A stretch of DNA of 64,000 nt from Rhodoferax lacus (lineage in GTDB: Bacteria; Pseudomonadota; Gammaproteobacteria; Burkholderiales; Burkholderiaceae_C). A model generated the notes under the pieces. The model ran no database searches. It saw nothing but the letters and a program-made list of their open reading frames with translations, and was not told where the DNA came from. Position 1 is the first letter of the stretch. Each line of letters opens with the position of its first letter. Of this stretch, positions 38,330 through 48,847 are shown piece by piece. The stretch is from assembly GCF_003415675.1 (NCBI RefSeq), contig NZ_QFZK01000003.1:124001-188000 (forward strand), written 5' to 3'. The position numbers and the translations under genes are program-made.

Positions 38330-39055
38330 CTACTTGCCTTGCCGCGCCATGAACACCTCGTGCAGGGTGATCTTGCGCACCTCGGCCTGGCTGGTCGCTA
38401 TGTGTGTGCGCAGCAGCAGCGTGGCCTGGTCGCCGCGCTGGCGCCCGATGGCCTTGAGGATCTTGGCGTGTTCGTCGTAGGTTGCGTCTATGCGGGCCTG
38501 CTTGGTGAAGTCCAGGCGGCGCAGGATGCGGATGCGGTCAGTCACGTCGCGGTGCACGCGGGCAATCTCCTGGTTGCCGCTGGCCTCCACCAGCGCGCAG
38601 TGGAAGTCCTCATCCCATTGGCTGACCTGCACGGTGTCGCTGCTGCGCTCGTCTGCTGGCACCAGCCAGATGGCGGCCAGGGCGTCTATGCGTGCCTGGC
38701 CTTTTGGACTGCGCGCCACGCCGGCATCGCACAAGCGGTCCACGGCGGCGGACTCCAGCAGCAGGCGCAGGTCGTAGAGCTGCTCGAACTTCTCGAAGTC
38801 AAAGGGAAGGATGCGCCAGCCGCTGCGAAACAGCACCTCCACATAGCCCTCCTGCTGCAGGCGGTAGAGTGACTGGCGCACCGGTGTGCGCGACACATTC
38901 AGGCGCAGGCTGAGCGCGCTTTCGGTAATGCGGTCGCCCGGAATGAGGCGGAACTCGGCAATGTCCTTCTTGATTTCTTCATACACATCGTCGGCAGCGG
39001 AACGCCGCTGCACAGTCACCTTTTTGACAGGTGTTTTCTTGGGAGCAGGTTTCAT
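38330..39055 (-). CDS. GntR-family regulator, FCD (FadR-like) type
   Basis: 241 residues from ATG 39055. The N-terminal winged helix includes ITESALSLRLNVSRTPVRQSLYRLQQEGYVE; the C-terminal all-helical FCD ligand domain has the metal-binding set (DEDFHCALVEASGN and later His residues). A Lys-rich head (about 1-15) precedes it. It is the last gene of the nitrogen-compound cluster and the likely regulator of the palindromes at 45374 and 48779. Confidence 0.9.
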   Translation of the reverse strand: MKPAPKKTPVKKVTVQRRSAADDVYEEIKKDIAEFRLIPGDRITESALSLRLNVSRTPVRQSLYRLQQEGYVEVLFRSGWRILPFDFEKFEQLYDLRLLLESAAVDRLCDAGVARSPKGQARIDALAAIWLVPADERSSDTVQVSQWDEDFHCALVEASGNQEIARVHRDVTDRIRILRRLDFTKQARIDATYDEHAKILKAIGRQRGDQATLLLRTHIATSQAEVRKITLHEVFMARQGK

Positions 39056-39092: not shown

Positions 39093-39764
39093 TCAGCCCA
39101 GCACCGCCAACAGTTCCTCGCTGGCAGCCGTCCAGCCGACGATGGCGCCTTGGGCATGCACCATGGCGATGGTGGCGGCCTTGAAGGCGGGGAAGTAGCT
39201 CTCGGTGCAGTCGGTCAGCAGCAGGCCGTCGTAGCCGCGGTCATTGGCTTCGCGCATGGAGGTCTGCACGCAGACTTCGGTGGTCACGCCCATGAAGATC
39301 AGGTGGCTGATGGCACGGCCCTTCAGTATTTCGTGCAGCGCGGTGCCATAGAACATGCCCTTGCCCGGCTTGTCGATCACGATCTCGGAGGCCAGCGGCG
39401 TGAGCTCGGGGATGATCTGGTTGCCCGGCTCACCGGACACCAGGATGCGGCCCATGGGGCCCACATCACCAATGCGCAGGCTGGGGTTGCCGCGTGTGCG
39501 CTTGGCCGGTGGGCAGTCCGACAGGTCGGCCTTGTGCGCCTCACGCGTGTGCACCACCAGACCGCCGTGGGCGCGCCAGGCCGCCAGCACGCGTTGGCAG
39601 GCCGGGATGATAGGGCGCAGCAGACCCACGTCATTGCCCAAGGTCTCGCCAAAGCCGCCGGGCTCCACAAAGTCGCGCTGCATATCGATGATGACCAGGG
39701 CTGTGTGCTTGACCTCAAAGGGAAAGGCAAAGGGCGTGGCGGGTAGGGAAAGGTTTGCTGCCAT
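39093..39764 (-). CDS. Isochorismatase-fold cysteine hydrolase, candidate triuret hydrolase
   Basis: 223 residues from ATG 39764, which has GGAG about six bases upstream. The catalytic triad of the family is visible: Asp31 in IDMQRDF, Lys132 in IDKPGKG and Cys165 in TTEVCVQTS. It is a paralogue of the BiuH-like protein encoded at 41446. In Herbaspirillum a relative, TrtA, hydrolyses triuret to carboxybiuret; that assignment here is inferred from context. Ureidoacrylate or another amide remain possible. No gene symbol given for that reason. Confidence 0.85.
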
Positions 39765-39811
39765 GGGGGCTCCGGTGGTGGGCTGTGCGGGCAATATGGA
39801 CGATGGCCTGG

Positions 39812-41449
39812 CTAGTGGTGGCCGCCGCCCATGTGGGCGCCCAGCTGCTGGCGGTCGGCCTGTGCGGCCGTGGTCTCAAACACGATGCGGCCTTCGCTCA
39901 TCACCACAATGCGGTCGGACAGCTCCAGCAGTTCGTCCAGGTCTTCGCTGACCAGCAGCACACCGGCGCCGCGCGTGCGCACCTGCACGATGCGCTCGTG
40001 GATGTCGCGCACGGCCGCAAAGTCCAGGCCGAACACCGGGTTGGCGGCTATCAGCACCTTGATGTCTCCTGCGAGTTCGCGGGCCAGCACGGCGCGCTGC
40101 ACATTGCCGCCCGAGAGGCTGCGGATGGGCGCATTCTCGCCCTGGGTCTTGACGCCGTATTCGGCAATCCAGTCACGTGCGCGGCTGCGCCAGGCAGCAA
40201 ACTGCAACAGGCCGCCCAGGAAGCGGCTGCGGCTCAAGGGGGGTTGGTCAAAGTCGCGCAGCGCCATGTTCTCAGCCACCGACAGGTCGCCCACACAGGC
40301 ATTGCGCAGCGGCTCCTCGGGCAGGCTGCGCACATACAGGCGCCGGTTCTGCTCGCGCGTGGCGGCATAGGGCTGGCCCGAAACCTGCACCGTGCCGGAG
40401 GCGCGTGCACGCTGGCCCACCAGGGCCTCTACCAGCTCGCGCTGGCCATTGCCCGAGACGCCGGCCACACCCAAAATTTCTCCGGCCTGCACCTGCAGGC
40501 TGATGCCATGCAGGGCCATGGTGCCGCGGTCGCCCATCGCTGATAAGGCTTGCACGTGCAGTGCGGGCGGCGTGCTGCTTGTGAGGTCTGCCGTGGTGCT
40601 TGCGGCCTCGGGCGCCGGGGCAGTTGGCGTTGTCATCGGTGCGGCTGCTTCGGCCGGCGCTGCCGCCGCCTGTACGCGCGGCTCGGCGCTTTCGCCCATC
40701 ATGGCGCGCGCCAGCAGCTCCGGGTTGGAGTCGGCCACCTGCGCATGGTGCACGGCGCAGCCCTTGCGCAGCACGGTCACAGTGTCCGCATAGGCCATGA
40801 CCTCGCGGAACTTGTGCGTGATGATGATGACCGAGCAGGCGCCACTGCGCGCAATCGCGCGCACATGGCCCAGCACCTCGTCGGCCTCCTGCGGCGTGAG
40901 CACCGAGGTGGGCTCGTCCAGTATCAAGAGGCGCGGGCGCAGGTAGAGCTGCTTGAGCAATTCGAGCTTCTGCTTTTCTCCGGCGGCCAGCTCCGAGGGC
41001 TTGGCATCCAGGTTCAGGCTGAAGGGTGTGGTGGCCAGAAAGGCCTGCAGCTCGGCACGCTTGGTTTTCCAGTCAATCAGCGCGGGTACGCTGTTGCCGG
41101 CCAGCAGCAGGTTCTCGGCCACGCTCATGCCCGGGGCCAGCGTGAAGTGCTGGTACACCATGCCTATGCCCAGGGCGCGCGCCACCACCGGGTTGGCAAT
41201 GTCCTGCTCGCGCCCGTCAATCAGAATGCTGCCCTCTTCGGCCCTTTGAAACCCGGCCACGCATTTCACCAGCGTGCTCTTGCCCGCGCCGTTTTCACCC
41301 AGCAGCGCGTGCACGCTGCCGGGCTCCACGCGCATGGTGACGCTGTCCATGGCGGTGAAGCTGCCAAAGCGCTTGGTGAGTTGGTAGGTCTCCAGCGTGA
41401 GCGCGCCGGTGTGCGCCTTTTGCGGGGGGATCAAGTCGGATGCGCTCAT
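39812..41449 (-). CDS. ABC importer ATPase with two nucleotide-binding domains
   Basis: 545 residues. The N-terminal ATPase has Walker [11 protein letters not shown]-loop, signature [13 protein letters not shown] and Walker [16 protein letters not shown]. An Ala/Pro-rich linker (about 262-300) leads to a second ATPase whose Walker A is changed to [10 protein letters not shown] and Walker B to [12 protein letters not shown], as is normal for the second half of RbsA/NupO-type ATPases. It works with the two permeases and BMP protein upstream in the operon. The biuH stop lies before its ATG with a four-base overlap. Confidence 0.92.
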
Positions 41450-42144
41450 TGCAACGCCTGCAGCAGTTCAGCAGACGTGGCATGTGCGCCGAACACGCCG
41501 CCCTGCATGGTGATCATCTTCAGCGCGGCCAGGTGGTTTCCTACGTCGGTGGCGGCGGTGCAGTCGGAGAGCAGCAGGCATTCAAAGCCGCGGTCGTTGG
41601 CGTCGCGCATGGTGGTGTGCACGCAGACGTCGGTGGTAATGCCGGCCAGGATCAGGTTGGCAATGCCGCGTGTGTGCAGCACCATCTCGAGGTCGGTGGC
41701 GTAGAACGAGCCCTTGCCCGGTTTGTCGATGACCACCTCGCCGGGCAGCGGCGCCAGCTCGGGGATGATTTCCCAGCCCGGCTCGCCGCGCACCAGGATG
41801 CGCCCGCAGGGCCCGGCGTCGCCAATGCCCACACCGTTGGTGCCAATCTGGCGCGAACGCCAGCGCTTGTTGGCCGGCAGGTCTGACAGGTCGGGGCGGT
41901 GTCCCTCGCGCGTGTGCATCACCAGGTAGCCCAGCTCTCGCATGCGCGCCATCAGGGTTTGCAGCGGGGCAATCGGCGCGCGGGTCAGGCCAATGTCATA
42001 GCCCATCTTGTCCACATAGCCGCCGGGCCCGCAAAAGTCGGTCTGCATGTCGATGACGATCAGGGCGGTGTTATCCGGCCGCAAGTCGCCATTGAAAGGC
42101 CAGGCGTAGGGGTTGGCGGCAACGGCTTGGGCGGGGTGCGTCAT
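41446..42144 (-). CDS. biuH: Biuret amidohydrolase BiuH-like
   Basis: 232-residue isochorismatase-fold hydrolase. Catalytic Asp36 (IDMQTDF), Lys141 (IDKPGKGSF) and Cys174 (TTDVCVHTT) fall within one residue of the positions I recall for Rhizobium BiuH. Extended stretches also match BiuH, such as [32 protein letters not shown] and [16 protein letters not shown]. BiuH converts biuret to allophanate and ammonia. Product use by an allophanate hydrolase-like protein in the same cluster supports the call. It overlaps the ABC ATPase gene by four bases. Confidence 0.88.
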
Positions 42145-42153
42145 GGTGCGGCT

Positions 42154-43074
42154 TTATCGGGTGTTGGAGAGTTCGCCCGGGCTGCCCACGGCCACGGCAC
42201 CGGGCTTGCAGGTCAGCACCAGGATCAGCAGGGTGAGCACATAGGGCACGGTGTTGAACAGGTGGTAGCCCCAGCTCACGCCCACCGACTGCAGGGCCGG
42301 GCCAATGGCACCGGCGCCGCCAAACAGGGCGGCCGCGCCTATGCAGCGCAGCGGACTCCAGCGCGCAAAAATCACCAGCGCCACGGCAATCAAGCCCTGG
42401 CCGCTGGAGATGCCCTCATTCCAGCTGCCGGGGTAGAAGAGGGTGAGCGACGCCCCGCCCAACCCGGCAATCATGCCGCCCACGCTGGTGGCGATCAGGC
42501 GTATGCCGCCCACCGAATAGCCCAGTGCACGCGCCGCATGTGACGAGTCACCCGTCAGGCGCACCAAGAGGCCGTAGCGGGTGCGGCCAAAGGCCCACCA
42601 CAGGGCCACGGCAATCAGCAGGCCCACCGGCAGCAAGGCGTTGATTTGCAGGGCTGCACGCACGGCCGGCGAATCGCTCCAGTTGCCCAGCTCAATGGCC
42701 GGAATCTGCGGGGCCTGCGGCTGCATCAGCGGCTTGCCCAGGTAAAACGCCAGGCCCGTGCCCAGCAGCATGAGGGCAATGCCGGTGGCCACGTCGTTCA
42801 CGCGCGGCAGCGAACACAAAAGGCCGTGGAGTGCGGCCAGCAGGCCGCCGGCCACTGCACCGGCCAGCACGCCCAGCCAGGCATTGCCGGTGAGGTAAGC
42901 GCCGCCAAAAGAGGCCATGGCGGCCAGCACCAGCACGCCTTCCAGGCCGAGGTTGATGCGGCCGGATTTTTCGGTCAGGCATTCGCCCAGGCTGACGAAC
43001 AGAAACGGCACGCCCACGCGCAGGGCGCCGCCGCCAATGCCTGCGGCCAGCGATATCCACATATCCGGGGTCAT
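42154..43074 (-). CDS. ABC transporter permease (BMP/nucleoside type)
   Basis: 306-residue inner-membrane permease with about eight to ten hydrophobic helices. The segment SGRINLGLEGVLVLAA is the family signature of the branched-chain/nucleoside permease group (Pfam BPD_transp_2). It pairs with the permease encoded directly upstream (overlap ATGA). Part of the importer with the BMP-type binding protein. Confidence 0.92.
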   Translation of the reverse strand: MTPDMWISLAAGIGGGALRVGVPFLFVSLGECLTEKSGRINLGLEGVLVLAAMASFGGAYLTGNAWLGVLAGAVAGGLLAALHGLLCSLPRVNDVATGIALMLLGTGLAFYLGKPLMQPQAPQIPAIELGNWSDSPAVRAALQINALLPVGLLIAVALWWAFGRTRYGLLVRLTGDSSHAARALGYSVGGIRLIATSVGGMIAGLGGASLTLFYPGSWNEGISSGQGLIAVALVIFARWSPLRCIGAAALFGGAGAIGPALQSVGVSWGYHLFNTVPYVLTLLILVLTCKPGAVAVGSPGELSNTR

Positions 43075-44162
43075 AGGTGTATCTCCTTCTCGCCCATCAC
43101 CGCCACCGGCCTGCGCCAGCGCAGCAGGGGGGTGAGCACAATCTGCTTCCAGTCCAGGTCGCGCAGCGCCTCGCTGGCCAGGATGAGCACAAAGGCAATG
43201 CCTTGCAGCACCTGCACCGAGGCATCGGGCAGGCCCAGGCGGCGCTGCAGCAGGCTACCCGCTGCGCCAAAGCCGCCAAACAGAATCGCCACGGGGATCA
43301 CGGCAAAGGCGTTTTGGCGCGAAATAAAAGCCACCAGAATCCCGGCATAGCCATAGCCCGTGATGAGCGACGCATTGGCATTGGTGTGCACCGCTGCTAC
43401 CTCCACGGCACCGGCCAGGCCGGCGCAGGCACCACCCACGGCACAGGCTATCAGCACCAGCTGCGAGGCCGGCAGGCCCACCAGCTGCGCGGTGCGCGGG
43501 TTGCCGCCCACCACACGCACGGCAAAGCCCGAGGCCGTCTGGCGCAACCACAGGCCGCAGGCCAGGCAGGCCAGCACGCCCAGCACCAGGCCCCAGTGGA
43601 TGTCCGAGCCGGCAATGCCGCCCAGGCGCATGCCCTCACTCAGGGCGTAGGTAGAGGGCTTGTTCAGGCTGGCCGGGTCGCGCAGCACGCCTTCCACCAG
43701 ATGCTTGAACAGGCCAATGGCGATATAGGCCATGAGCAGGCTGCTGATGGTCTCGTTGATGCCGCGGTACTGGCGCAGCCAGCCCACCAGCGCAATCCAC
43801 AGCGCACCCGCCAGAGCCCCTGCGGCAAACACCAGCGTGGTGCCCACGATGTTGTCGGGCAGGGGCACGGCATAGGGCAGGGCAGCACAGGCCAGGCCCC
43901 CCAGCACCAGCGCGCCCTCGCCGCCAATCACCACCAGGCCGGCGCGTGCCGGCACCACCACGCACAGGGCGGTGAGCATCAGGGGCGCGGCGCGCTGCAA
44001 GGTGTTCTGCCAGGAGAACCAGTCGCCAAACGCGCCCTTGAACAGGATCACCCAGACGTCGACCGGGTTCACACCCGAGAGGCTGACAAAGCCGCCGAAG
44101 ACCAGCAAGGCTGCTGCGATGGCCAGCACCGGCAGCAGGATGTCTTTGAGGGATTCGCGCAT
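43071..44162 (-). CDS. ABC transporter permease (BMP/nucleoside type)
   Basis: 363 residues from ATG 44162; a much longer reading frame upstream overlaps the binding-protein gene in another frame and is not coding. It has about nine hydrophobic helices and the BPD_transp_2 segment RAGLVVIGGEGALVLGG. Forms a heterodimer with the next permease by family precedent. Starts about 30 bp after the binding-protein stop. Confidence 0.92.
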   Translation of the reverse strand: MRESLKDILLPVLAIAAALLVFGGFVSLSGVNPVDVWVILFKGAFGDWFSWQNTLQRAAPLMLTALCVVVPARAGLVVIGGEGALVLGGLACAALPYAVPLPDNIVGTTLVFAAGALAGALWIALVGWLRQYRGINETISSLLMAYIAIGLFKHLVEGVLRDPASLNKPSTYALSEGMRLGGIAGSDIHWGLVLGVLACLACGLWLRQTASGFAVRVVGGNPRTAQLVGLPASQLVLIACAVGGACAGLAGAVEVAAVHTNANASLITGYGYAGILVAFISRQNAFAVIPVAILFGGFGAAGSLLQRRLGLPDASVQVLQGIAFVLILASEALRDLDWKQIVLTPLLRWRRPVAVMGEKEIHL

Positions 44163-44191
44163 GGCGGGGTGCCTCTGCAGGTGGTGAGGCT

Positions 44192-45310
44192 TTAGATGGA
44201 GCCGATCACGCCTTCGACCAGGTAGTTCATCTTCTCCAGCTCGATGTCGGTCTGCGCAAAGGTCTTGCCTGCGGGCACCACGATGTTGCCCTTGTTGTCT
44301 TTGAGCGGGCCCTTGAAGATGTCGAACTTGCCGGCAACCATCTTGGCCTTCACGTCGTCGGCCTGCTTCTTGGCGGCGTCCGTCACCATGGCGCCATAAG
44401 GCGACATCTTCACGTAGCCTTCCTTCAGGCCGCCGCGGATGAAATTGGGGTGCGGCTTGCCACTTTGTGCGGCTTCGATCACGGCCTTGTAGGCGGTGAG
44501 CCAGTTCCATTCGGCTCCGGTCAGGTAGGCGTTGGGGGCTAGCTTGGCCTGGCTTGCGTGGTAGCCGCAGACCATCTTGCCGCGCTTGGCCGCGGTTTCC
44601 ACAATCACCTTGGGGCCGTCCACGTGCATGGTGATCACGTCCACGCCCTGGTCGCACAGGCTGTTGGTGGCCTCGGCTTCTTTGACGGCGATGGACCAGT
44701 CACCGGTGAAGATCACCGAGCAGGTGATGCCGGGCTTGACCGAGCGCGCGCCCATCAAAAAGGAGTTGATGTTGCGCAGCACCTGGGGGATGGGCTTGGC
44801 CGCCACAAAGCCGATCTTGCCGCTCTTGCTCATGTGGCCGGCGATCACGCCGTTGAGGTACTGGCACTCGTCGATGTAGCCAAAGTAGCTGCCCACGTTC
44901 TTGGGGTGCTTGCCCTCGGTCCACATGCCGCCGCAGTGGGCAAAGCGCACGTCGGGGTATTTGCCGGCCAGGGCCAGGATGTGGGGGTCAAAGTAGCCGA
45001 AGCTGGAGGGGAAGAGCACGCTGGCACCGTCCTGCGCAATCATGCCGGCCATGGACTTTTGCACGGCGGCGGTTTCGGGCACGTTCTCTTCTTCCACCAC
45101 CTTCACGCCCGGCATTTTCTTGATGGCAGCAGCGGCTTCGGCCTGGGCCTGGTTGTAGCCGTAGTCGTCCTTGGCACCCACATAGATGCAACCCACGGTG
45201 ATGGGCTTCTGGGCCAGCGCCAGGGTGCTCCAGGAGCCCAGCGTGCTGGCGGCGCCCAGTGCGGCGATGGTCTTGATGGAATCTCGGCGGTTGGGGTTCT
45301 GCAGTGTCAT
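44192..45310 (-). CDS. BMP-family ABC substrate-binding protein
   Basis: 372 residues from ATG 45310 with AGGAAC upstream. The signal peptide has a twin arginine followed by a hydrophobic stretch (NRRDSIKTIAALGAAS) and a SxALA-type cleavage site, so Tat export is possible. Mature protein: ITVGCIYVGAKDDYGYNQAQ, FGYFDPHILALAGKYPDVRF, GSYFGYIDECQYLNGVIAGHMS, typical of BMP/Med proteins that bind nucleosides or purine-like compounds. Given the neighbours, biuret, triuret or another amide is a likely ligand. A palindrome at 45374 sits 64 bp upstream. Confidence 0.9.
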   Translation of the reverse strand: MTLQNPNRRDSIKTIAALGAASTLGSWSTLALAQKPITVGCIYVGAKDDYGYNQAQAEAAAAIKKMPGVKVVEEENVPETAAVQKSMAGMIAQDGASVLFPSSFGYFDPHILALAGKYPDVRFAHCGGMWTEGKHPKNVGSYFGYIDECQYLNGVIAGHMSKSGKIGFVAAKPIPQVLRNINSFLMGARSVKPGITCSVIFTGDWSIAVKEAEATNSLCDQGVDVITMHVDGPKVIVETAAKRGKMVCGYHASQAKLAPNAYLTGAEWNWLTAYKAVIEAAQSGKPHPNFIRGGLKEGYVKMSPYGAMVTDAAKKQADDVKAKMVAGKFDIFKGPLKDNKGNIVVPAGKTFAQTDIELEKMNYLVEGVIGSI

Positions 45311-45370
45311 GGTCTGGGTTCCTGGTGGCGGGTTGAGGGAGGTCCAAAACAGTGCGGAAAATCCACGACT

Positions 45371-45387
45371 ATTCTTGGATACAAGAT
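45371..45387. promoter_or_regulatory. Palindromic operator upstream of the ABC importer operon
   Basis: Core CTTGGATACAAG (45374-45385), arms CTTG/CAAG with four bases between. The flanked 17-mer read on the minus strand is identical in 16 of 17 positions to the one at 48777-48793. The arrangement resembles FadR-type GntR operators (TTGTATxCAA). It sits about 64 bp before the binding-protein ATG. Confidence 0.6.
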
Positions 45388-45425
45388 GGTGTGCAAATTC
45401 TGTGCCGGTTTTTTCGGCGGCGGTT

Positions 45426-45809
45426 TCAGGGCGCGGCTTCGAGCAGGCTGACATGGGCACTGACCACCTTCCAGCCTGCGGGCGTGCGCATCCAGGTCTG
45501 GCTTTGGCGGCCGCTGCGGCTGGCACCTGTGCGCTGGAATTCGATGTTCACCGTGGCAAAGTCATGCCCGTAAGTGGTGATGCAGGTGCGCAAAACAGTG
45601 CGCGCCAGGCCGGTGGATGGGCGCGCCGCGCGAAAGGCCTGGATGGCCGCATAGCCGTACAGGTTCTCGCCCACGCCATAGCGCAGCGTGTGCTCGCTGT
45701 TCCAGAACAGCGTGTCCAGCACGGCCACATCGTTGCCCACCAGGGCGGCCTCGTACTGGTCGCTGATGGACTGCAGCTCTTGCAGCACGTGGGGGATATT
45801 GATGTCCAT
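45426..45809 (-). CDS. atzH: AtzH-like protein (DUF3225, SnoaL-type fold)
   Basis: 127-residue cystatin/NTF2-like protein: [29 protein letters not shown], then [38 protein letters not shown], matching the DUF3225/AtzH pattern. In the cyanuric acid pathway AtzH deaminates 1,3-dicarboxyurea to allophanate. The gene begins one base after the AtzE-like stop. Family identity is good; the reaction is inferred from context. Confidence 0.85.
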
Positions 45810-45810
45810 G

Positions 45811-47208
45811 TCAGAGCTTCACGGTTTTGAGGTGTGCAATGCCTGCGTCCTGCAGGCTCTGGGCGGCGCGCAGGGCCAGGTCTTCGCGCCAAGGGGCGGC
45901 AATCAGCTGCACGCCGATGGGCATGCCGCCAGTGCCGCTGGGCCACAGCGGCGCCGTCACCACCGGGCAGCCGGAAAACGAGATGGGCTGCGACAGCAGG
46001 CCAATTGACGGGCGACAGGGCATCTGCTGCCCGTTGATGTCCAGCCACTCTGCACCCAGGAGCGGCGCGCTCAAGGGTGTAGCCGGGGCGACCAGCACAT
46101 CCCAGTCCTTGAAGAGCGCCAGCACGCGTTCGCGGTAGATGCGGCGGAATTGTTGGGCGCGCAGGTACCAGGCAGTGGGCTGCAGGGCACCGGCCAGAAA
46201 GCGGTCCACCGACAGCGGCTCAAAGTCGTCCAGGCGGGTTTTCAGATCCGCCAGGTGCAGGCGCCCGCCTTCGCTGGCGGTGATGATGAAGGCGGCCGCG
46301 CGCGCCAGTGCGGCGTCCGGCCAGAGTGCTATTTCCGGGGTGTTGAGCGTGCGTGCGGCGGTGGTTGCGGCCTCGGTGGCAGATGGCGTGGCCAGCTCTT
46401 CAAAGTAGCCGCCCAGGCGCGCGATGCGCAGGCCCTGGCTGCCCCGGCCCAGCATTTGGCCCACGGGCTGCACGCGCAGCGCGTGGCAGCCGGGGTCTTG
46501 GGAGTCGGGCATCTGGAGGGCGTCATAGGCCAGGGCCAGGCCCTCCACCGAATCGGCCAGCGGGCCCAGGTGGTCAATGCTGTGCACAAAGGGGTAGCTG
46601 CCCCGGCGCGAGAGGCGTCCGAACGTGGGCTTGAGGCCCCACACGCCGCAAAATGAAGCTGGTACACGGATGGAGCCATTGGTGTCGGAGGCCAGGGCAA
46701 TCGGCACCTGGCCTGCGGCCACGGCCGCCCCCGAGCCGCCCGAGGAACCACCGGCCGTGCACGCCAGCTTGTGCGGGTTGTGGCTGGGGCCGTAGTGGGA
46801 GTTTTCGGTGGTGAAGCCGTAGGCGTACTCATCCATATTGAGCGTGCCCACCAGCACGGCACCGGCCTTCTGCATTTGCGTGATCAATGCCGCATCGGCC
46901 TGTGCAGGCGGCATGCCCTGGTTGACCTTGGAGCCGGCCAGGGTGACCAGGCCTTCCACATCAAACAGGTTCTTCACGGCATAGGGCACTCCGGCCAGGG
47001 AGGGCAGGACGGCGCCCGACTGGCGCAGGGCGTCCACCGCATCGGCCTCGCGCCGTGCACGCGCATGGGTGTGGTCGATGAAGGCGTTGACCTGGGGGTT
47101 GGTGGCTTCAATGGTTTGCAGCGTGGCCTCCAGCACCTCGCGTGCACTGCGCTCGCCGCTGGCAATGGCGCGTGCCAGTTGCACGGTGGTGGGGGTGGCT
47201 GCGCTCAT
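45811..47208 (-). CDS. atzE: AtzE-like amidase (1-carboxybiuret hydrolase subunit)
   Basis: 465-residue amidase-signature protein from ATG 47208, overlapping the AtzG-like stop (ATGA). The Ser-cisSer-Lys triad is Lys79 (PYAVKNLF), Ser155 (TAGGSSGGS) and Ser179 (DTNGSIRVP). AtzE with the small subunit AtzG hydrolyses 1-carboxybiuret to 1,3-dicarboxyurea. Plain Asp/Glu-tRNA amidotransferase GatA is unlikely because an AtzG-like partner, not GatC/GatB, is adjacent. Confidence 0.88.
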
Positions 47209-47432
47209 GGGGCGCTCCGGTAGTCGCTGTCGCGCAGCGCAGGAAATTCGGCCGGGCAAAAGATCTCGCTGGGCTCTTCCTGGAGTGCCATGGGGAAGGC
47301 TTCGAGCTGGCGCGCCAGCAGCAGGGTGCGGCCCAAATGACCGGCTACCGCGTGCGCTCGCGCGTCGTCCAGCGGCAGTTGCAAAAGCGTCGCGGCAGCT
47401 TTCACATAGGCCAAAACATCGGCGTCGTTCAT
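47205..47432 (-). CDS. atzG: AtzG-like small subunit (DUF4089)
   Basis: 75-residue helical protein: NDADVLAYVKAAATLLQL and GHLGRTLLLARQLEAFPM, as in DUF4089/AtzG, a GatC-like partner that stabilises AtzE. Four-base overlaps with the genes on both sides imply equal production with AtzE. Confidence 0.85.
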   Translation of the reverse strand: MNDADVLAYVKAAATLLQLPLDDARAHAVAGHLGRTLLLARQLEAFPMALQEEPSEIFCPAEFPALRDSDYRSAP

Positions 47433-48763
47433 GCGGGGCTCCAGGGCGTGGTGTCGATATGGGGGATGGTGGTGGGTGCGGGCAGCGGCGTGGCCAGTGC
47501 GCCTTGCAGCATGCCCGTGGCATGGTGGTAGCGCTGACCCAGTTCGGCCAGCTGCCAGTCACTGGCGCAGGGGCCCACCAGGGTGATGCCAAAGGGCAGG
47601 CCGTCGGGGCGGATTTCGCTGGGCACCGACAGCGCCGCATAGTCCAGCAGGTTGACGAAGTTGGTGTAAGTGCCCAGGTTGCGGTTCAGGGCCACCGGGT
47701 CGGCCTGCATCTGCTCTATGGTGTAGTGCGTAGGGGCGGTGGGCAGCAGCAGCACATCGATATCGGTCCACATGGTGTGGGCCTGCTGGCCCAGGGACTG
47801 CAACTGCGCCTGCGCCTGAAATACGTCGGCCGCGCTGTACTGGCGGCCGCTGGCAATGATGCTGCGCACCGGCTCCATCACTTCCTTTTCATGTGCGTCG
47901 AAAAAGCTGCGGATGGCGGCGTAGCGTTCGGCCACGAGGGCGCTTTCATAGAGCAGGGCGGCGGCCTGGGCCAGCGGGGCATAAGCCACAGTCACCGGCC
48001 TGCCGCCCAGAGCCTGCAACTGGCGCACGGCGCGGGCAAAGGCCTGCTCGGCCAGTGCGTCGCCAAAGAACTGCAGCACATCGGGCACGCCAAAGGCAAA
48101 GGCCTCTGGGAAGGGCCTGCTCAAGAGCCGCAGGACGCGTGAATAGGGGTCTTTGGCATCATGCCCCATGGCCACAGCCAGTACCTCTGCGGCCAGGCCC
48201 ACGCTGCGCGCAAAGATGGACACGCAGTCCGCACTCTGCGCCGCAGGCAGCACGCCCCGGGTGCTGATCAGCCCCTTGCTGGGCTTGAGGCCGACGATGT
48301 TGTTCAGGCCCGCCGGCACCCGGCCCGAACCGGCCGTGTCGGTGCCCAGCGCAAAGTCCACCTGGCCGGTGGCCACCACATAGGCCGAGCCGGAGCTGGA
48401 GCCACCTGATACGTAGTCTGGGTGAAAGGCATTGGGCACCGCGCCATAGGGCGAGCGCGTGCCGTTGAGGCCACAGGCAAACTGGTCCAGGTTGGTCTTG
48501 CCCAGAACCTGTGCACCGGCCTGCTGCAGCCGTGTGACCACGGTGGCACTCTCCTGGGGCAGGTGCGCAAAGGCCGGACAGGCCGCCGTGGTGGGCAGGC
48601 CGGCCACGTCGATGTTGTCCTTGACGGCAAAGGTCAGGCCGCTCAGCGGTCCCTGCGCCACCAGGGGTGCGCTCGCCTGCACGCGGCTGATCCAGGCATG
48701 GGCGGCCAGATCGGCGGGGGCTTGCTGGGCAGTCGAGATGGCGGTCGAGAGGGCTTGCACCAT
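47429..48763 (-). CDS. atzF: Allophanate hydrolase-like amidase, short form
   Basis: 444 residues from ATG 48763. The amidase domain is that of allophanate hydrolase: LSGLTFAVKDNIDVAGLPTT with Lys48, YVSGGSSSGSAYVVA with Ser122, and GTDTAGSGRVP with Ser146, then NNIVGLKPSKG. Known AtzF/DUR1-type enzymes are about 600 residues and carry a C-terminal domain of about 150; this one ends after the amidase domain. The amidase domain alone is the part that deaminates allophanate. First gene of the atz-like half, 16 bp after a palindrome. Confidence 0.83.
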   Translation of the reverse strand: MVQALSTAISTAQQAPADLAAHAWISRVQASAPLVAQGPLSGLTFAVKDNIDVAGLPTTAACPAFAHLPQESATVVTRLQQAGAQVLGKTNLDQFACGLNGTRSPYGAVPNAFHPDYVSGGSSSGSAYVVATGQVDFALGTDTAGSGRVPAGLNNIVGLKPSKGLISTRGVLPAAQSADCVSIFARSVGLAAEVLAVAMGHDAKDPYSRVLRLLSRPFPEAFAFGVPDVLQFFGDALAEQAFARAVRQLQALGGRPVTVAYAPLAQAAALLYESALVAERYAAIRSFFDAHEKEVMEPVRSIIASGRQYSAADVFQAQAQLQSLGQQAHTMWTDIDVLLLPTAPTHYTIEQMQADPVALNRNLGTYTNFVNLLDYAALSVPSEIRPDGLPFGITLVGPCASDWQLAELGQRYHHATGMLQGALATPLPAPTTIPHIDTTPWSPA

Positions 48764-48793: not shown

Positions 48794-48847
48794 GCGATGC
48801 AAGAGCTATGCCACAGGCCTCGCGTACATCGCTTACACTGCGCGTGC

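Follow-up and report, generated by a model that had tools for sequence, protein, structure and literature searches.

A probable operon for triuret and biuret use joining TrtA and BiuH to AtzGEH and AtzF in Rhodoferax lacus

Introduction

The stretch of DNA studied here (the window: 64,000 nucleotides of Rhodoferax lacus contig NZ_QFZK01000003.1, positions 124,001 to 188,000) carries homologues of AtzF, AtzG, AtzE and AtzH, known from the cyanuric acid operon atzDGEHF of Pseudomonas sp. ADP, together with two isochorismatase-fold hydrolases and a BMP-type importer. It raises the question of what feeds AtzGEH when the cyanuric acid hydrolase AtzD is missing. The role of atzG-atzE-atzH clusters in many atzD-free genomes is left open in the text of PMC6219798. 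Here, we propose that these genes very probably form a nitrogen-starvation-controlled operon for the use of triuret and biuret. TrtA, BiuH, AtzEGH and AtzF are already known enzymes. The link to TrtA gives the atzGEH clusters a concrete, testable substrate, and gives part of a textbook pollutant-degradation pathway a natural source. Beyond this, the operon points to a TrtB-independent alternative for processing the TrtA product, contains a candidate importer of triuret/biuret and leads us to predict nitrogen control.

Results

An eleven-gene operon without AtzD

Eleven minus-strand genes (48763-38330), all intact and lying end to end with short gaps or overlaps only, form one operon in the order atzF-atzG-atzE-atzH-bmp-permease-permease-biuH-ATPase-trtA-gntR. 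Gene names were assigned by family-profile searches and by searches against solved structures; ABC stands for ATP-binding cassette, and the suffix ADP marks proteins of Pseudomonas sp. ADP.

48798..48813, minus strand: sigma-54-type (-24/-12) promoter-like site TGGCATAGCTCTTGCA, 5′ of atzF (10/11 positions)
47429..48763, minus strand: AtzF-type allophanate hydrolase, amidase domain only, 444 aa (TIGR02713, 555 bits, cut-off 511; NF006043 over cut-off)
47205..47432, minus strand: AtzG, small partner subunit of AtzE (PF13318 AtzG-like, 31.1 bits, cut-off 24; 44% identity to AtzG-ADP)
45811..47208, minus strand: AtzE, 1-carboxybiuret hydrolase (TIGR02715, 668 bits; PDB 6C62, 697 bits; 67% identity to AtzE-ADP; trees)
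45426..45809, minus strand: AtzH, 1,3-dicarboxyurea decarboxylase (PF11533/NF033625 over cut-off; PDB 6BJT; 62% identity to AtzH-ADP)
45392..45407, minus strand: sigma-54-type (-24/-12) promoter-like site CGGCACAGAATTTGCA in the atzH-bmp gap (10/11 positions)
44192..45310, minus strand: BMP-type solute-binding protein (PF02608; top PDB match AtzT 6PI5, 40% identity)
43071..44162, minus strand: ABC permease 1 (PF02653)
42154..43074, minus strand: ABC permease 2 (PF02653)
41446..42144, minus strand: BiuH, biuret hydrolase (NF050097, 417 bits, cut-off 370; 71.5% identity to 6AZO; BiuH signature)
39812..41449, minus strand: importer ABC ATPase (PF00005, 2 stretches)
39093..39794, minus strand: TrtA, triuret hydrolase, TTG start with an in-frame ATG at 39764 (PDB 6XIX top, E 2.4e-84, 61% identity)
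38330..39055, minus strand: GntR-family regulator, final gene of the operon (TIGR03338, 90 bits, below cut-off)

The initial annotation, made from the sequence alone, had described BiuH, a second isochorismatase-fold hydrolase, AtzE/AtzG/AtzH/AtzF and a BMP importer at 39093..48763. All of these genes are intact on one strand and the coordinates are correct; the GntR gene (39055-38330) belongs to the operon as well. The absence of AtzD, also remarked upon there, is borne out. Indeed, a pADP-1 AtzD query found no match in the window's genome at 1e-10, while one of 11 other genomes tested alongside matched at 597 bits; AtzD elsewhere in the genome was rejected on this ground. A PF09663 search of the same genome also gave no match, but its positive control matched nowhere either.

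The order bmp-perm-perm-biuH-atpase-trtA is kept in 82/82 loci holding both a cognate bmp and trtA (131 loci examined, of which one, L138, is without the TrtA residues; intervening genes ignored), and the arrangement is therefore not due to chance. A GntR homologue accompanies 78 of 80 named TrtA loci.

TrtA and BiuH

TrtA and BiuH are set apart by F35, N41, E160, Y187 and I205 around a common Q202, and A134 tolerates Ser (PMC7948467). We read an alignment of 248 isochorismatase-fold sequences at 14 active-site and specificity positions, after dropping rows below 190 residues or 100 bits. The signature of the second hydrolase of the window, DFFNEKKMTECYQI, equals that of TrtA 6XIX, DFFNEKKATECYQI, at 13 of the 14 positions, only position 134 (M) being different; the catalytic D24/K129/C162 and the specificity residues F35, N41, E160, Y187, Q202 and I205 are all present. 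The first hydrolase (DFYYEKKSTDCTQV) is equal to BiuH 6AZO at 14/14 positions, with Y, Y, D, T and V at 35, 41, 160, 187 and 205. The exact TrtA string was found in 99 rows (PDB row included), the TrtA string with M at 134 in 34 (window included) and the BiuH string in 92 (6AZO and window included). Going by key residues, the 248 rows divide into 137 TrtA-type, 97 BiuH-type and 14 other.

The sequence thus strongly supports the identification of the second hydrolase as TrtA, a predicted triuret hydrolase. Among solved structures, 6XIX is its top match with 286 bits, compared with 187-218 bits for BiuH chains. BiuH was rejected for this protein, which scores 254 bits against NF050097, under the cut-off of 370, and has the wrong residues; so was the distant RutB (101 bits, cut-off 378). 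A grouping with ureidoacrylate or other hydrolases, which would have spoken against the initial annotation, did not occur, and residues and identity both point to TrtA.

AtzF, AtzG, AtzE and AtzH

The window AtzE has an adjacent AtzG and groups with AtzE-ADP, as expected of an AtzEG pair. Tyr22, Arg46 and Arg73 of AtzH are kept in the window protein (Y/R/R). The AtzF of the operon is about 50% identical to AtzF-ADP, and its TIGR02713 match spans profile positions 22-426 of 563. The 444-residue protein ends at the point from which 600-residue AtzFs continue into their C-terminal domain, and this domain is absent. The contig encodes a second AtzF at a distance of about 109 kb, with a match that covers profile positions 2-563 of 563. 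The large frame beside this full-length AtzF resembles a urea carboxylase. As for the shorter form, an isolated amidase-domain fragment of AtzF was reported to retain amidase activity (PMC3944691).

The proposed route

Altogether, residues, phylogeny and comparative genomics support the route suggested by the initial annotation, in which triuret would be converted to carboxybiuret, dicarboxyurea and allophanate, and biuret to allophanate. The BMP-type ABC importer would bring in planar ureides, triuret and/or biuret. TrtA, judging from its near-identical active site, would deaminate triuret to 1-carboxybiuret. AtzEG would then deaminate carboxybiuret to 1,3-dicarboxyurea, and AtzH would decarboxylate the latter to allophanate, as reported for the ADP homologues; AtzGEH would thereby fill the place of the decarboxylase TrtB in the published triuret pathway. 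BiuH would deaminate biuret, either imported or arising from spontaneous decarboxylation of carboxybiuret, to allophanate. Finally, AtzF would deaminate allophanate, and its product probably decays unaided since the C-terminal domain is absent. RpoN-type promoters before atzF and bmp would turn on both halves of the operon under nitrogen shortage.

Predicted nitrogen control

Sites matching the sigma-54-type pattern at 9/11 positions or more lie within about 300 bases 5′ of 68/87 atzF genes (2.8 expected) and 82/125 bmp genes (3.3 expected). Upstream of trtA they were found in 19 of 187 genes (6.0 expected, a threefold excess) and upstream of atzE in 5 of 147 (4.1 expected). At 10/11 positions or more, the counts are 56 for atzF, 46 for bmp, 2 for trtA and 1 for atzE. 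The expected counts come from shuffles that keep single-base make-up only. Over the whole window, the pattern with up to 2 mismatches occurs at chance level (68 sites, 69.9 expected), and the promoter claim rests on the position-restricted upstream comparison. In Pseudomonas sp. ADP, the atz operons are described as relying on sigma-54 and being switched on by nitrogen starvation (PMC6834077). Together with this, the enrichment before atzF and bmp supports a nitrogen-scavenging role with two predicted transcription units.

The ligand of the BMP-type importer

The initial annotation took this importer class to be new for such substrates. This is not supported: AtzT, the closest solved structure to the window BMP protein, is itself BMP-type (annotated as BMP family on pADP-1), and bmpA-nupABC is described beside biuH, trtA and atzF in PMC12625717 (2025).

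What the importer carries is a separate matter, and it might be purines or nucleosides, with an operon serving purine breakdown at large. BMP/PnrA proteins often bind nucleosides. Moreover, AtzT binds guanine at 110 nM through contacts that are given in PMC6834077, and PMC12625717 names such genes a nucleoside transporter. At nine of the guanine-contact positions, AtzT reads YSFTENWNN and the window protein YSFQQNWHD: the purine-pocket residues Glu165, Asn218 and Asn220 of AtzT are replaced by Gln, His and Asp. Among 128 cognate BMP rows (the window counted twice and some genomes probably so), Tyr45, Trp194, His218 and Asp220 show no variation, and 126 rows have Gln165. An unchanged aromatic sandwich is thus combined with altered polar contacts, as would fit a planar ligand different from guanine. 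These replacements, along with the interleaving of the importer genes with biuH and trtA in all 82 loci mentioned above, make purine import rather unlikely.

TrtA and AtzGEH in relatives

The loci of relatives come from samples that overlap: named loci and loci with G handles seem partly to come from the same genomes (e.g. L080 and L180), and their counts were kept separate. All 80 named loci carry the TrtA residues, with AtzE in 48 and BiuH in 67. In the order-level sample, a TrtA match at 1e-50 was obtained in 56/399 genomes, and 51 loci from 50 of the 56 (matches >225 bits) were examined: AtzE is found in 17 and BiuH in 24. One of these loci, L138, was fetched as a TrtA locus but is devoid of the TrtA residues and was left out, giving 50 order-level TrtA loci. 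Conversely, 83/399 genomes of the family match AtzE-ADP at 1e-150; of the 80 AtzE-selected loci (the other 3 were already in the set), 54 have TrtA and one has AtzD at a distance of up to about 9 kb.

Family-wide, across 382 genomes assumed to be a subset of the 399, AtzE and TrtA occur together in 64, AtzE only in 15, TrtA only in 32 and neither in 271 (Fisher p 6e-34, relatedness ignored). TrtA is thus found in 64 of 79 AtzE genomes and in 32 of 303 others. Counted by genus (n=141), the corresponding numbers are 42, 11, 14 and 74 (p 6e-14, relatedness ignored here too). AtzGEH also adjoins AtzD, the other 1-carboxybiuret-making enzyme, in pADP-1, two further Pseudomonas plasmids and G1197.

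In nine of the 80 named TrtA loci, atzG-atzE-(atzH)-trtA occurs without biuH (atzH was not called in 2 of them); seven hold a different, AtzT-like BMP gene. Hydrogenophaga palleronii and Hylemonella gracilis have such biuH-free clusters. BiuH was found in 0/9 of these genomes: the BiuH query matched best to trtA, at the positions of the TrtA loci and with 49-53% identity, compared with 71-91% identity to the window BiuH for those of the 67 other named loci. AtzF is present in 8 of the 9 (65-75% identity). Pseudomonas sp. ADP is unable to break down biuret, for which it is a dead end (PMC6219798), as it would be in these nine genomes. Six order-level loci have AtzE and AtzH beside trtA with no BiuH at the locus, BiuH elsewhere in the genome not being excluded.

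These data bear on the idea that AtzGEH is a passenger with another substrate (e.g. an oxalurate-type ureide, as for HpxXYZ), triuret being used through TrtA, spontaneous decarboxylation, BiuH and AtzF only. The window AtzH does score over the HpxZ cut-off, although pADP-1 AtzH is itself annotated as hpxZ; AtzE genomes exist with neither TrtA nor AtzD, and many TrtA loci are without AtzE. However, biuret would dead-end in the nine BiuH-free genomes, and AtzGEH adjoins both carboxybiuret-making enzymes, TrtA and AtzD. Furthermore, the window AtzE groups with AtzE-ADP and falls outside a separate, fully supported clade (f58) with a gamma-glutamyltransferase neighbour, which was confirmed in one member, L147; oxalurate HpxXYZ was rejected for this reason. 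Altogether, we consider the passenger role quite improbable.

Several observations nonetheless weigh against a simple coupling of TrtA and AtzGEH in a triuret pathway. First, 20 of the 50 order-level TrtA loci, some on short contigs, show none of BiuH, cognate bmp, AtzE and AtzH nearby; therefore TrtA does not need AtzGEH. Second, 26 AtzE loci have no local TrtA, and among the 19 of their genomes that were tested TrtA is found elsewhere in 8 and not at all in 11. Only one of these 11 has AtzD and 10 show neither enzyme, so AtzGEH has at least one further partner beyond TrtA and AtzD. In the family-wide table, 15/79 AtzE genomes lack TrtA at 1e-70, some of the AtzE-only genomes being broken assemblies. 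Third, AtzD lies 3-8 kb from trtA in 3/80 named loci and beside trtA in 1/51 order-level loci, and some relatives may therefore serve cyanuric acid too. Finally, in the window itself, the similarity of AtzG is modest, and M at position 134 of TrtA is absent from the reported changes, which include the tolerated A134S.

Of the 11 tested TrtA-free AtzE genomes, the one with AtzD is L176. In L192, L181, L194, L201, L202, L203, L226 and others, atzF, AtzE-type genes and gntR are found in genomes without a TrtA match, and L192, the one such locus checked for a transporter, has an SsuA-type ABC transporter.

AtzE phylogeny and the origin of the plasmid genes

A first tree, built from 92 AtzE sequences in a sample chosen largely via TrtA, places pADP-1 AtzE in a fully supported group of 22 rows, the other 21 of which are TrtA-linked. 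We also built an AtzE-selected tree (101 rows, quick method, support from the Shimodaira-Hasegawa-like approximate likelihood ratio test, SH-aLRT, only); fragments below 380 residues were dropped from the AtzE trees, none in this case. There, AtzE-ADP pairs with the single AtzD-linked member of the family, and this pair falls, with the two other AtzD-linked sequences from plasmids, within a supported 36-row group comprising 21 TrtA-linked, 11 without TrtA found and 4 AtzD-linked. TrtA linkage is present in the other large family branch as well. Moreover, one AtzD-linked and one TrtA-linked AtzE (L155, L171) from elsewhere in the phylum group together on one branch, so a partner switch has occurred there too. 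The AtzH tree (131/187 rows kept after removal of near-duplicates, few columns) does not contradict this picture and resolves little.

For this family, the simplest reading of these trees makes TrtA linkage the older state and AtzD linkage the derived one, a direction that we infer. They suggest that at least one atrazine-degradation plasmid gene is of the same lineage as genes of triuret/biuret operons. We lean, with some reserve, towards a wider scenario: the unstable carboxybiuret made by TrtA would be the main and ancestral substrate of AtzGEH in Burkholderiales, the atzGEH of atrazine/cyanuric-acid plasmids would have been taken from such triuret operons, where AtzD would have taken over from TrtA the supply of this intermediate, and the linked BMP proteins, with their Gln/His/Asp pocket, would be a branch that binds ureides.

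A second cyanuric-acid-type operon was seen on Pseudomonas plasmids (L174 6944-11795, L175), with the order ring-opening amidohydrolase-atzF-G-E-H-solute carrier 23.

Related hydrolases and distribution of the cluster

Outside the window, the same genome encodes a third TrtA/BiuH-like hydrolase (L143 8598-18885; G000:C40 ~51-62 kb), whose signature DFYLEKYATECSEI has Y in place of K132 and E in place of Q202. It lies near an AtzF of full profile length. We take its other neighbours to be a creatininase-like gene, ABC transporter genes and a large urea-carboxylase-like frame. Y132 and E202 are likewise found in an isochorismatase-fold protein on a wastewater Pseudomonas plasmid (L256), a possible guanylurea hydrolase. 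That the window's second hydrolase acts on guanylurea or another ureide rather than on triuret would be in line with the many specificities and few substrate residues of this fold family and with the difference at position 134, but is highly improbable given its 61% identity to TrtA, its kept specificity residues, its K and Q where the wastewater protein has Y132 and E202, and its distance from RutB.

In many clusters (L140 7760-8764, L009, L013, L027 and others), permease 2 and biuH are separated by a formamidase gene, which is absent in the window; a formamidase homologue is found in 37/80 named loci. Clusters of the window type occur in relatives among Rhodoferax, Curvibacter and Polaromonas. 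The module atzF-bmp-perm-perm-formamidase-biuH-atpase-trtA-gntR is carried by Enterobacter and Pseudomonas oryzihabitans plasmids (L140, L257). Among the matches listed, Klebsiella, Enterobacter and Citrobacter plasmids share the same TrtA identity (64.2%). A TrtA-like hydrolase gene is also present on Escherichia plasmids (78/291 matching records), those listed being about 59-60% identical to the window TrtA. In the genus Rhodoferax the operon looks accessory, with an AtzE (1e-150) or TrtA (1e-70) match in 0/4 same-genus genomes listed.

Comparison with known systems

The published triuret pathway, trtA-biuH-atzF, is described for Herbaspirillum sp. BH-1 and R. leguminosarum and relies on spontaneous decarboxylation or on TrtB (PMC7948467). 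The window shares TrtA, BiuH and AtzF with that operon and differs from it by having AtzGEH. Triuret loci on a Rhizobium lentis plasmid and on an Enterobacter plasmid have the order bmp-perm-perm-(formamidase)-biuH-atpase-trtA, as in the window. The nitrifier contigs of PMC12625717 are also alike in TrtA, BiuH, AtzF and a BMP-type ABC importer (bmpA-nupABC), and unlike in having TrtB or no decarboxylase and, as described there, no AtzGEH.

Two proteins of relatives are candidates for TrtB, an isolated and distant AtzH-like protein in Ideonella and a cupin in Rhizobium, and neither is in the window. Distant AtzH-like proteins follow trtA, or atzF following trtA, in several loci where no AtzE was found (L141 13475-13876, L082, L083, L085, L086, L095). 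They form a separate, fully supported clade and are candidates for the TrtB decarboxylase.

AtzEG of Pseudomonas sp. ADP is mentioned in PMC7948467 as acting on the same intermediate as the TrtA product. In a literature search that covered some of the TrtB/AtzEG papers and no supplements, we found no paper in which AtzGEH and TrtA are joined in a single pathway within one genome. Compared with the atzDGEHF operon (PMC6219798), the window has the same atzG-atzE-atzH order, AtzF and a nearby BMP-type importer; it is without AtzD, has TrtA and BiuH in addition, and its AtzF lacks the C-terminal domain. Clusters of atzF, atzGEH, ABC transporter and ‘amidase’ genes in Rhodoferax, Variovorax and others were described in 2018, with no substrate assigned in the text (PMC6219798). 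From that description, their gene order is that of the window and they are probably the same kind of locus; going by the same text, their ‘amidases’ probably correspond to the TrtA and BiuH that we find in loci of this type.

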